The position numbers and the translations under genes were made by a program. DNA of 64,000 nucleotides from the NCBI GenBank assembly GCA_018389105.1, contig JACATO010001745.1:1-64000 (forward strand), given 5' to 3'. The notes beneath the pieces were generated by a model. The model had not been told where the DNA came from. It made no database searches and saw only the letters and a list, made by a program, of their open reading frames with translations. Origin of the DNA: Nautilus pompilius. Lineage: Eukaryota > Mollusca > Cephalopoda > Nautilida > Nautilidae. Every line of letters starts with the position of its first letter. Position 1 is the first letter of the stretch. This document shows positions 279 to 62,890 of the stretch, piece after piece.

Positions 279-3200
279 CTATTGAACGAAGTCAGCGGAG
301 ATCGTCATCAGGTCGGCTTTTTTAAAGGAACCTGTAAAAACAACAAGAGAAGAGATGATACCAAAACAAAGGAACGAACGAGAGAAAAGGGGCAGCGAAG
401 TCAGCGGGGGATAAAGTGACCACTAAAGACGGACGGACCCCCTCTCCCCCTGGTGTCAGTTTTCTACGCCAGATAACAATGGAGGATTAGCAACAGATTC
501 ACTGAGGGGGGGGGAGAGAAAAAACCCAGCTGAGGCTTTTTAGTTTTTAGATGTAAGAGGAACTGACGGCATTGGTAGGAGGGAGAAATTACGTCTTCGG
601 CACTTCCGGTTCGTTAATGGTAAGGGGGAAAAAAAGAGGCACTGCAAGGGGGGGGGGCTTATTTACTCATTCGTACAGAGACGAATTTCTCGGGGTCGTG
701 ACGGAATCAAGTTCTGCGCTTACGTGCGATTTAGACGAGCAGTCGGTCGGCCAGTTAACCCTTTAACAACTGCAATTTCCGTATCCACGACCCGGTATTT
801 GTTGAACTTTAAATTCTTGATTCAACAGTAGGACTTCATTGAGATGTATTCTTTTTTTTATGGCATGGAGACGCGGTGTTTCCTCCCCCCCCAACCACTC
901 ACCATATTCCCACCTCTGCTTTCCTGTTGACGCTGAGTACATGAACACGGGAAACTCTGATGTCTTTTCCCAGGAACAAGGACCTCTCTTGTTAATTATC
1001 CCCATCCATCCAAGATCTTTTGTGCAGCCATTGTAACAGCAGTTGATGAAGTAGTATCTTTTCAAGTGAAGTCTTTGGTGAACAAGACAAAAAGATCAGC
1101 AAATCACATTTAAAAATAGGAACTCTGAGATAGGATGCGAAACATTCAAACGAGATTTTTTCACTTTTAAATAAGTATAGGTTTTCTGAGATCTAACTAC
1201 ATTCCATTCGATGCTTACTGTCTCGTTCTGCTTTTCGAAATCGTGTCTTCATCTTATTCCTAAAAGACCTCAGTGTCCTTTTGGTGCGCAGGGTCACGCC
1301 AAAGATGTCTTCGCAGAAACGTTAAGATAAACCGAGCGGAATTAATGTAGGAAATCGTGCAACAGGATAAGTAATAAGAGCGTTTGATCAGTCACCACCA
1401 TGCACCCGCTTTGAAAATTTTAGCAATACTAATTGAAAGACAGTTTCTTTTTACACTCACCCCTTATCTCCACGAATGGAGAAATAGTTGAGGTCCGCAC
1501 TCGCACCGAGATCGGTCCAGGGAGACCGGAGAAGTCTGTCCACGGAAAACCAGCTCTCCTTCGTCGAGTTCCTTCCGTCGAATCTCAGCTCGAGAACGTT
1601 TTTTACCGTCTTCGTAAAAAACAAACTTCACCTGTGGGAGTTGAGATAATGGCAGCGGTGATAAACAGTAGTTTAAAGGACATCAGAAATTGTTAACAGG
1701 GGTTCACAACAAATATATCAGCTGAGGGAAAGGGGGTTAATGCCCAAATTCTGGCCGGATTTGCACGACCCGAGCCAAGTTTATTTAGTTTTCAAGACAC
1801 ACTAAGGGCTTTGTTCCGGATGTAGTTTATTGCGTGTCTGACGTCTTCGACGACGGCGAGATCATGTGACAGGCGAATTAAAGGCAAAGGGGGGGGACAG
1901 AAGAGAATGAAAGGGTCAATGAAGCGGGACGTAAAAGGTAATCTAGAAACCGAGTAACAGAAATGAGTAAGACTATGGTATTCTTTCTTTCGTTCGTTTT
2001 GATATAAGGTGACTTAGAGATTAACGCCTCACTCGATGGATTAGGCCAGCCTCGTTCCCGCTTGGACCAATTAAAGAAGGGTGAAACGTTTCGTGGGTTT
2101 GTCCCTATTAATTCAAAGAAAATTTCAGAGTTCTGCTGTATCTACACCGTTTTTGGTGTAGGATTTAGTTAATCTTCCATCTTGGCCCCACACAGATGTC
2201 GTTCGAATGATAGCGATTACTCCGATCGCATAAACGAGAGAAAGAGGGGAAAACGTGAAACACGGAAGAAAAATAGCATCGGGCGAGAATTCGTCTCCCC
2301 TCATCTTTAATAACGGATATAAAGAAGAATGGAAATCGGGTTTCCCAGGTATAGATAGGACGTTAGATGTAAATGACGTGTAAAGTTGATGTTTTGGTTT
2401 TGAGCAGGACTAGGCTATTCTGCCCGATTTTGAGAGAACCCATCTTCTGTACGCATCCCCACCTGTCTCCCTAAGCTTAGTTTTAGGCTTGAAACCAACA
2501 GCAATTAAAGAAAAGCAACTTTCGAAGTGCACTGTTCAAGACGGAGAAAGCCCAGTAATGGATATGTTGACGGACAGCATACAACAAGCAGTCCTGATAC
2601 AGACTCTATCCCAGAAGCAAACCAACAGAACCTTTTCTCTATTTAGTCCTCATCGACCATCGAGATCGAAACACTTCTTATTGAATATATATATACATAG
2701 GGGGTGTGTGCAAAAGTAGGTATACAGTAAGCATCACATCGAAGTTATAACATGTTAAAGGATACAATAATACCACAGGTCCGTGAACAATATCAGGAAG
2801 ATGACTTCTACTTTCAGCAAGATGGGGCGTCACCGCACTTTGCACTCACTGTGCGGTGCACTACTCAAAGGAGAGTTTCCCAACAGGTGGATTGGACCGT
2901 CGAGGAGCCGTCGACTGGCCGCCACGCTCGCCAGATCTAACCCCTATGGACTTCTTTTATGGGGATATGTAGAGGATAGGGTATTCGCACGCAAGCCACG
3001 CTCTGCTGACGACATGATTCAGTTCATCTTTCAGGCTTGTCAGGAAATTGATGCTGATAAAGACCTTTGTGCCAGAGTGTGCATGAGTGTCCGCTCTCGA
3101 TTAGAGGCTTGTATGAATAACAGGGGCAAGCAGTTTTAACATCTGAGGCATTAAGGCTGCGCTTGTTTTCACATGTATATGCGATATTGATTTGCTTGTA

Positions 3201-6200
3201 TAATAGATGCAATGAGTATTGTACGTGTTTTCTTTTTTCATATCTGTATACCTACTTTTGCACCCCCCCTGTATATGTTAACAAAATTCCACCGGCTGAA
3301 CTTACATTGATTCGTTCTAGCTCAGCCTCTGTATCCATTTACCTCCAGGAAATGTAAGAAGCTTTCAGTTTATGAATCTGCCATCAATCCCCCTACTTAG
3401 CAACTTTAGATTTGTATGGAAAAATATTTTAATAAACGCTTTGGTCTTTCTCCATATTTGATACGACCGTGGGCGCTAAGTGGCAACTCGTGATAAAAAC
3501 ACAGTTGGGCGCCAGACTATAGATTCTGATACAGAAAAAGTTACTGTAGCAAAAGAGAGAGAGCGATACGTTTAAAACCGGTGGAAATAGAGGCTGACTA
3601 AGCGTTAGCACATAAAGAAATGTGGCGCGCATTTACTAATTTGTCACCGTTCTGTAGGCAACTAGGTTCGTTACAACAGAGAAGAATCGGCAAAGGAAAG
3701 GTTAATTGTTTTCGTTACTAGAGAAAAGCCTTCGATCGCTATATATGTCGTTTCTCAGATAGAAAGATAATCATGTCTTCAGATTCTAGCGGATAAAATG
3801 AAATGGGAACCGTGTAGCTGCTTCCATATATATATATAAACCGGACAACTGAAAGTTACTTCCGGACATTTCTTGTCGCGGTGCGTTCTGGGATCGATTT
3901 CTTGGCGATCACGTGTCTTCGCCTCTAGAGTGCGCTTCAGCTTCAGAAATGGAATAGTATCGAGGCTGCCGTCGATGATGCTGATGTTAATTTGAAAAGA
4001 ACTCAGCTTCTCTGCAATCTTTTGGGTGGCCGGACAAACAGATGTCTGCCTCCCAACTTGAACGAGCCGTCGCTAAACTAAAACCAATAGGCAATTGAAG
4101 ATTTTATGACAATGGGTGAGGCCCACGAGAAGATGGGCAAAATTTATGGGAGATACAAGACCGAATTTGATCATGTTTGCACAAATTGTTAAATCTAACT
4201 TTCGGATACGGTAAACAGATCACGAAGGCAGAATCTAAGCAAATACGGATATATTTCCCTGGCCATTCTGAAAGAAGATACGAAATCCTTAAGAGATTAT
4301 AATATATTTATACGACTCTGAATTAACAGTGAAGTTAGGTCTGTAATTATCGCATTAGAGGTGTACACTTCATGATGCGGCATGATAGCGACTCGAACTT
4401 ACATGGCGGAGAAGCAGATGGATATGACGGACTGGTCGGCGAATTTATTCTACTCAAAAGATGATTACAATGACTTCCCTAATATTCTCTGTACGTTCAC
4501 GACCAAAGGGGGGGTGGTCGCTGATTTTGTGGTCGCGTTCTACCTACAGCCCTTGATATGATTTATTCTCTACCTGGGACTTTATCCGGATACACAGTTT
4601 TTCCTACTATACACAAAAAAAAACTGCATATAAGAGTTGCTATGGAAAATTATTATTATTATATTATTATTATTATTATTATTATTATTATATTATATTA
4701 TTATTATTATATTATTAGATGATATTCTGGTTGCATTTCCACGTAATAATCTGCGTTAGTTTTCTATACTGTCCTGGACACAGTTTAGTACACAACTGAC
4801 GTCACGGCCTACAGCAAGTCCCCCCCTTTCAATAAAACTCCTATTTCCTTATTCACCTCTCCGATGGGCAGGGTGTCCCAGAAGTCGATCAGCGGACTCC
4901 TGAAGACGGCATCGCAGGAGGTCCGGCCACAGTCGAGCCAGCGGCTGAGGTTGGCGGTCCCCATGAAGGCCTCGTAGATGTTGATGCCTGTTTTACTTTT
5001 AGCGGTAAACATCAAAAACCAGGTGTCACCTGAGGATAAAAACAACAACAACAACAAACAAACAAAGGGTCAGGCACGCGAGTATACAATAAGCATACCA
5101 ATGAGCGAAAATCTACCTTTACCCCATCCTTAGAGGGACCGGTCAGCGCCATGCGAGCCGGATCTTCCAGATCTCTATGGTTGCTGTTAGTAAAAAGGCA
5201 GGTAAAGATACATCCCGTCTACTATAATAACTGGAGGAGAATTAAGAAGCAACATTCGATCGCCTCTGCTTCTCATTACGTCGTATAGCGGTAGGATAGG
5301 TGAGGCGTGGTCCACGACGCGAGCTCTTCTATCCTCAGAGCGGGAGACATTAAAGCAACACCATCCGTCCCGAGTGGGTTAACAGCTGGCTCAATAACCG
5401 CCGGCGATCAGTTCTCTGGTTGGGCAGCCAGCAGACATTCGGCTCGTAATGAATGGGAGTAGAGAGCTAGGCGAGGGTTCGAAACCATACCGGCTCCGAG
5501 GTGTCCAAATATATTTATATATATATAAAAGTTTCAGCAAATCTTAACATCTCTAATAAAGCAGAGTATAACGTTTTAGATCTACGTTAAATTAAAATCG
5601 ATGGTAGACACTGGACCAGCAGGTATAACGTTAGCAAGAACGTTAATTAGCTTTAACTCTTTTGGCTCTTGAAATACAGGAACAATAATTTCTACCCGAT
5701 TCAAAGTTTCGAGACAGGAATGGTTTCGTCATATTTCGAATGCTCGACTTAACCTTCCACAAAAGCGCAAAAGAAACCGGATATTTAGAAACGGTCCGGA
5801 TATTTAGAAACGGTCAGTGAATCGCTCATGTGCTTGTTAATGGACATTTGTGAAGTTATTGATTAGGCAAAAAGATAGGAATCCTAATCTACCGTTCCCA
5901 GTGGATTGGGCGAGATTAAACAAACTGCAAGCATGTTTGCGGCAATAAAAATAAATAAATAAATAAATGGATTCCGGATTATGATGAGTCGGTGGAAAGG
6001 GGGACGAGGGAACACGTGGAGAACTGGCTCGTATAATAAATGGTTAGTTCCTCGGCGCCTTCACGCGTTGACGATTCCGTGTCGATCTGCTCTTATATCG
6101 TTAGCCACTCCACCCCTGGCTTGACATCTATAGGAACCGCTATCAAGTTAGCTGAATACGTAAAAACACAAAGATATCGCTTTACACATCATATAAAATA

Positions 6201-62430: not shown

Positions 62431-62890
62431 TATAAGCTAAGTGTGGATTTTTGCTTGGTGGATAACGTGACCTCATCACGGTACATCAGAGAATTAACTT
62501 CATAGAAGACCATGACGATACAGGTGTGCTAGACTGACATGAAATAAATGCAGAAGGGGCAGCTTTTATGGAAAGTTTTCGAATAAACGAGGTCTAAGGT
62601 TCAAAGGAATTAATTTATAATTTGTAACTTTTACATGTCCAGGGTGCAAGGGGTTGGTACACAACCTACGTCACGGACGACAGAGGCTGCCCCTTTAGTA
62701 ATGAACGATATTTCCTTATTCACTCTCCGATGGGCAGGTGTCCCAGACGTCGATGAGCGGACTCCTGAAGACATCGCAGGAGGTCCCTTCACAGTCGAGC
62801 CAGCGGCTGAGGTTGGCGGTCCCCATGAGGGCCCCGTAAATGTCGATGCCTGTTTCGCTTTTAGCGGAAAACATCAAAACCAGGTGTCGT

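Follow-up and report, generated by a model that had tools for sequence, protein, structure and literature searches.

What do the repeated genes in a 64,000-nucleotide stretch of the Nautilus pompilius genome (contig JACATO010001745.1, positions 1 to 64,000; hereafter the window) encode, and do they make up an undescribed system, as an earlier note on this DNA had proposed? Our analysis indicates that the window holds seven units of one five-exon gene, and that this cluster of paralogues would encode small secreted, disulfide-bonded proteins with a signal peptide, one PAN (apple-type) domain and a C-terminal module, a domain without a name in the family libraries searched. The idea of an undescribed system is not supported. 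What we see is a small multi-copy family with decay and probable gene conversion, a gene family of the ordinary kind in which one part has no name yet.

Seven units of one five-exon gene

The units, found by tblastn of the exons against the window, are called A, relic and 1 to 5 here. A and 5 lie on the minus strand and the relic and genes 1 to 4 on the plus strand, hence the copies are clustered as the earlier note had it but the cluster is not purely tandem. Exon 1 was recovered in five units (A, 1, 2, 3 and 4; E from 7e-69 to 1.7e-26), exon 2 in all seven (9e-39 to 1e-15), exon 3 also in all seven, only partially in gene 3 and the relic (1.8e-34 to 1.4e-7), and exon 4 in six, all except gene 3, with a fragment in the relic (1e-35 to 7e-4); each of these ranges counts the source copy of the query too. 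Exon 5 was located in four units, through a short C-terminal pattern in A, 1 and 2 and through DNA and peptide similarity in gene 4. As a control, exons 1-4 of gene 2 searched against the reversed window gave four matches at E<=1, the best at 0.30. The exon homologies are well above chance, and the multi-copy five-exon family stands, at seven units counting the relic.

Four of the seven units (A, 1, 2 and 4) have all five exons with GT-AG introns. Joining the exons gives 289 codons plus stop for gene 1 and 291 codons plus stop for gene 2, exactly the product lengths predicted before, and both are open throughout. Their four GT-AG introns, with borders read directly, have the phases 1-0-2-1. 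The identical phases claimed for the family thus hold for these two genes, while A and 4 have GT-AG borders at matching places that fit the pattern, with an exon 3 that puts the frame out by a single base. For gene 5, exon 1 did not turn up inside the window, and its upstream intron may pass the right edge; nor did the window yield exon 1 of the relic, or exons 4 and 5 of gene 3. Rfam gave no matches. The features are as follows.

12001..12313, minus: gene A exon 1, signal-peptide-like start and PAN (tblastn E=1.7e-26; PAN_1 21.5 bits against a cut-off of 21.4)
4857..5029, minus: gene A exon 2 (tblastn E=1.8e-27; AG/GT borders)
1461..1631, minus: gene A exon 3, extra base in an A-run, frame break (tblastn, alignment)
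903..1072, minus: gene A exon 4 (tblastn E=4.8e-14; borders)
279..331, minus: gene A exon 5 with stop (C-terminal pattern, similarity)
14045..14221, plus: relic exon 2, degenerate start (tblastn E=6.3e-27; alignment)
15508..16219, plus: relic exon 3, 69-base tandem array with in-frame stops (tblastn; TRF)
17091..17150, plus: relic exon 4 fragment (tblastn E=7.3e-4)
21736..21785, minus: isolated exon-5-like remnant (72% DNA identity over 50 bases, E=2.4e-5)
22512..22818, plus: gene 1 exon 1, open gene of 289 aa (tblastn E=2.1e-53; joined frame)
23898..24070, plus: gene 1 exon 2 (tblastn; joined frame)
25482..25651, plus: gene 1 exon 3 (tblastn; joined frame)
25942..26108, plus: gene 1 exon 4 (tblastn; joined frame)
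26965..27017, plus: gene 1 exon 5 with stop (C-terminal pattern, similarity, joined frame)
28688..29000, plus: gene 2 exon 1, open gene of 291 aa (PAN_1 E=3.9e-6; joined frame)
30896..31068, plus: gene 2 exon 2 (tblastn; joined frame)
32082..32251, plus: gene 2 exon 3 (tblastn; joined frame)
32543..32709, plus: gene 2 exon 4 (tblastn; joined frame)
33567..33619, plus: gene 2 exon 5 with stop, DNA identical to gene 1 exon 5 (pattern, similarity, joined frame)
36845..37157, plus: gene 3 exon 1, one PAN cysteine changed to Tyr (tblastn E=3.3e-43; alignment)
38925..39098, plus: gene 3 exon 2, G-run shortened by one base, cysteine lost, donor GC not GT (tblastn, borders, alignment)
44339..44465, plus: gene 3 exon 3 remnant without its 5' part, one extra base (tblastn, alignment)
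45570..45882, plus: gene 4 exon 1 (tblastn E=3.1e-36; PAN_1 E=1.4e-8)
47832..48010, plus: gene 4 exon 2 (source of the exon 2 tblastn query; borders)
49716..49884, plus: gene 4 exon 3, base missing in a T-run, frame break (tblastn, alignment)
51267..51436, plus: gene 4 exon 4 (tblastn E=7.1e-11; borders)
52352..52404, plus: gene 4 exon 5 with stop (DNA and peptide similarity)
62724..62892, minus: gene 5 exon 2, single bases deleted at three places, among them the donor, and 3 bases at a fourth (tblastn E=1.3e-25; alignment)
60750..60919, minus: gene 5 exon 3, open (tblastn E=1.8e-28; alignment)
60387..60553, minus: gene 5 exon 4, open (tblastn E=4.2e-18; alignment)
58200..58885, minus: gene 5 degenerate 3' region, exon 5 not open (blastn 71% to the 3' ends of genes 1 and 2; translation)

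The PAN domain and the C-terminal module

Exon 1 had been read as a signal peptide followed by PAN; our data agree on PAN and show a start that resembles a signal peptide. The PAN_1 family (Pfam PF00024) has a gathering score of 21.4 bits, and the scan covered genes 2, 3, 4 and A. Gene 2, queried with exons 1-4 (E=3.9e-6, 27.1 bits), and exon 1 of gene 4 (E=1.4e-8, 34.9 bits) lie above this cut-off, exon 1 of gene A is at or above it (E=2.1e-4, 21.5 bits), and exon 1 of gene 3 falls just under it (E=4.9e-4, 20.3 bits). A Pfam scan of another ten sequences, open frames or exon 1 copies, gave PAN in three, at or just under the curated cut-off, and no other family at its cut-off. The exon holds four cysteines in genes 1 and 2, and gene 3 has lost one. 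A hydrophobic start and a possible cleavage site by the -3,-1 rule were seen in all five exon 1 copies, using a simple hydropathy rule rather than a trained predictor; the maximum 11-residue hydropathy is 2.15-2.88.

The C-terminal module carries the motifs proposed for it (LRFDGR.ST, DRGWM.IIN and YPVF.YS), but its extent had to be revised, from exons 2-4 and about 170 residues to exons 2-5 and about 186 residues for the conserved part. In genes 1 and 2 the module supplies four of the eight cysteines of each full product, which has two N-glycosylation sequons in gene 1 and one in gene 2. That the module lacks a named family was borne out for the libraries searched. None of the Pfam and NCBIfam families matched at E<=10 in any of the five members scanned, with HMMER filters that drop most weak matches. 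The PHROG matches (E=0.061, 0.26 and 0.32, each in one of the five members) were taken as chance, and the profile search of PDB returned a single chain, an antibody heavy chain, at the chance level of E=0.72. Should this prove a true orphan domain, a name for it would allow annotation of secreted proteins that these libraries leave without one, and its fold could probably be settled with a deep alignment.

Decay of the copies

Seven one-base indels, read by eye from the exon alignments, are spread over units A, 3, 4 and 5. Six of the seven sit in runs of at least two identical bases: an extra A in an A-run (A exon 3), a T missing from a T-run (gene 4 exon 3), a G missing from a G-run (gene 3 exon 2), and, in gene 5 exon 2, a T missing from a T-run, a C from CCC and a G from GG at the donor. 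The extra C in exon 3 of gene 3 is the only one outside a run. Run-placed indels would fit uncorrected sequencing error as well as pseudogenes. Since six of the seven look like uncorrected long-read errors in this respect, the animal itself may have unbroken copies of A, 4 and 5.

Gene 3 is a pseudogene on independent grounds, because its exon 3 is without the 5' part, its exons 4 and 5 were not found, and a cysteine is lost both in PAN and in the C-terminal module. In the relic, the start of exon 2 is degenerate, exon 4 is a fragment and exon 3 is an array (15588-16205, period 69, 8.9 copies by TRF) whose units match the family exon 3, with an in-frame stop in most matched units; we read it as an exon turned into a minisatellite.

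Exons with differing histories

We calculated dN/dS, the ratio of non-synonymous to synonymous divergence, from Nei-Gojobori counts per exon. The exon 3 segment shared by A, 1, 2, 4 and 5 has ratios of 0.13-0.42 in all ten pairs, and whole exon 3 has 0.34-0.44 in three pairs; exon 3 is under protein-level constraint. The ratio is 0.29-0.95 for exon 4 (ten pairs), 0.38-0.87 for exon 5 (five pairs; genes 1 and 2 are identical) and 0.21-1.15 for exon 1 (ten pairs), where it exceeds 1 only for gene 3 versus genes 1 and 2 (1.13 and 1.15).

The exons of one gene have differing histories. Between A and gene 2, synonymous differences number 1/36.8 in exon 2 versus 42/69 in exon 1, 12/31 in exon 3 and 9.4/29 in exon 4, and the DNA identity of 90-98% is limited to exon 2, the adjoining 50-base blocks showing 74-78% and those further out less than 50%. 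Genes 1 and 2 are 91-100% identical over 900 bases (26863-27762), i.e. exon 5 and beyond, with 52-82% in the intron blocks. Sequence from intron 1 of A (5049-6148) recurs with 97-100% identity at about 63000-64000, upstream of exon 2 of gene 5 and reaching the right window edge, through a recent duplication or conversion or perhaps as an assembly duplicate. In genes 1 and 2, exon 4 differs at 30/125 non-synonymous sites versus 47/500 in exons 1-3, and at 13/31 synonymous sites versus 24/145. Because divergence is up at both site classes, exon 4 would be older or less converted. The best explanation of this patchwork would be gene conversion or partial duplication. The locus is thus a compact example of exons with unlike histories in one family, and of an exon that has become a tandem array.

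We also considered positive selection on exon 2 from the A and 5 pair, where the intron is 97-100% identical and the exon 91-95%. This was rejected, since identity drops to 59% beyond the exon, and the edge of a conversion or duplication accounts for the pattern.

Repeats and other sequence in the window

Intron 1 of gene A contains a 66-base tandem array of 36.8 copies (9357-11778) and a 155-codon minus-strand open frame (7073-7540) without a Pfam match at E<=1, which looks like common transposon-derived animal sequence. In gene 3, a 45-base array of 14.6 copies with 97% matches (41885-42542) lies between what is left of exon 2 and of exon 3. A 450-base stretch in intron 2 of the relic (14839-15286) is 94% identical to one in the corresponding gap of gene 3 (43147-43591). 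Just downstream of exon 4 of gene 5 is a 119-base array of 3.2 copies (59905-60278), set in sequence similar, as judged by eye, to intron 4 in genes 1 and 2.

Possible function and competing explanations

We infer that the products are secreted, disulfide-bonded and engaged in binding. The PAN domain, by analogy, may dock on a protein or a sugar, and the C-terminal module, with exon 4 as its most variable part, would give a second binding surface. The family would then act as soluble extracellular recognition or adhesion proteins, and the cluster would evolve by duplication, decay and, most likely, gene conversion (birth-and-death). We give this whole statement, secreted recognition or adhesion proteins with PAN and the orphan module as two binding modules, an even chance, and rank the anatomy alone higher. 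It is quite unlikely, in our view, that exons 2-5 form an undescribed animal-specific, disulfide-stabilised recognition domain diversified by exon-sized conversion between inverted and direct paralogues, with exons 2-3 as the common frame and exon 4 carrying the differences.

Several observations weigh against this functional reading. The binding role is extrapolated from PAN domains as a class, and exon 1 compared with PDB sequences gave 41 matches at E<=10 without a significant one among them (apicomplexan MIC4 leads at E=0.053, most are ribosomal eL29 and a few are factor XI and plasminogen). Beyond the window no relative of exons 2-5 was confirmed in the viral and prokaryotic sequences searched, where 59 and 37 stretches fit one of two short peptide patterns and tblastn confirmed none, a search that misses relatives without those peptides. 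AlphaFold2 on the joined gene 2 protein, aligned with four further sequences (all of gene 1, A and 4 for exons 1-2, and 5 for exons 3-4), gave an unusable model (predicted local distance difference test, pLDDT, 33.4; predicted template modelling score, pTM, 0.22; 285 of 291 residues below 50), too poor for a fold search to be meaningful. Diversifying selection on exon 4 was rejected, as its high dN comes with high dS. The exon 2 ratios range over 0.35-1.96 in six pairs and exceed 1 in 1-A (1.23) and 2-A (1.96), with few differences. As to conversion, the synonymous contrasts were picked after the counts were seen: exon 2 of A versus 2 differs from exons 1, 3 and 4 (Fisher p=9e-10, 0.0003 and 0.0035, on rounded counts), and exon 3 against exon 4 in 5 versus 2 is not significant (p=0.16). 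The pairs A-1 (80-88%) and A-4 (86-92%) also peak in identity over exon 2, and synonymous divergence of this exon is low in all six pairs (0.03-0.25), hence selection on the exon 2 DNA itself may account for some of the mosaic signal.

The locus could instead be mostly dead, with no copies at work beyond genes 1 and 2, which may themselves be unexpressed, and the rest debris without collective function; this has an appreciable though less than even chance. Frames are open throughout in genes 1 and 2 only, and the other five units read as broken, the relic exon 3 is now a tandem array with stops, and gene 3 combines its lost cysteines with the two exon 1 ratios above 1. The placement of the indels speaks for A, 4 and 5 against this, and so does the common exon 3 part of A and 4, which is constrained versus genes 1 and 2 (dN/dS 0.13-0.37), a constraint that may predate the breaks. 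An alternative that we consider unlikely is a structural role in shell, egg coat, mucus or adhesive, with matrix proteins that use PAN and the C-terminal module for cross-linking or for attachment to a polysaccharide scaffold. Secreted, cysteine-bearing, multi-copy genes are generally known to be common among matrix proteins, but by eye the two open products have no repetitive or markedly acidic stretch. One published parallel for a lineage-expanded orphan secreted family is that of coral USOMP-5 and egg-protein (EP-like) sequences (PMC4890752, PMC6824150). We regard it as improbable that exons 2-5 encode a strongly diverged version of a fibrinogen-related domain or of another lectin fold already known, which would make the protein a known kind of PAN-lectin. 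The aromatic, Gly-Cys and Trp spacing (GC..D.GWM..IN...C.WE) loosely recalls disulfide-closed lectin domains, which is an impression only, and it is opposed by the empty Pfam and NCBIfam scans and by the antibody as the sole PDB chain.

The recognition or adhesion reading remains our preferred one for the proteins. As a biological system, the locus stays ordinary until expression or a ligand is shown.

Comparison with known systems

No paper on a family of this kind was recognised by title among the matches listed in a search of open-access literature on PAN, a scope that leaves room for one in print elsewhere; those listed include a leech genome paper (PMC7191736) in which the term 'PAN domain' occurs four times, and one oomycete paper. 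The PAN/apple proteins (PF00024; plasminogen, coagulation factor XI and apicomplexan MIC4) resemble the products here in the PAN_1 match and the four cysteines of exon 1. They differ in that a single PAN is joined here to an unnamed C-terminal module, with no protease or kringle match of gene 2 in Pfam. Coral USOMP-5, which PMC4890752 relates to coral egg proteins, can be set beside the family by description. It differs in the fibrinogen-related subdomains reported for its sponge relatives (PMC6824150), whereas the module here is without a Pfam match. The likeness is limited to that of a lineage-expanded secreted animal family for which no domain was first reported.

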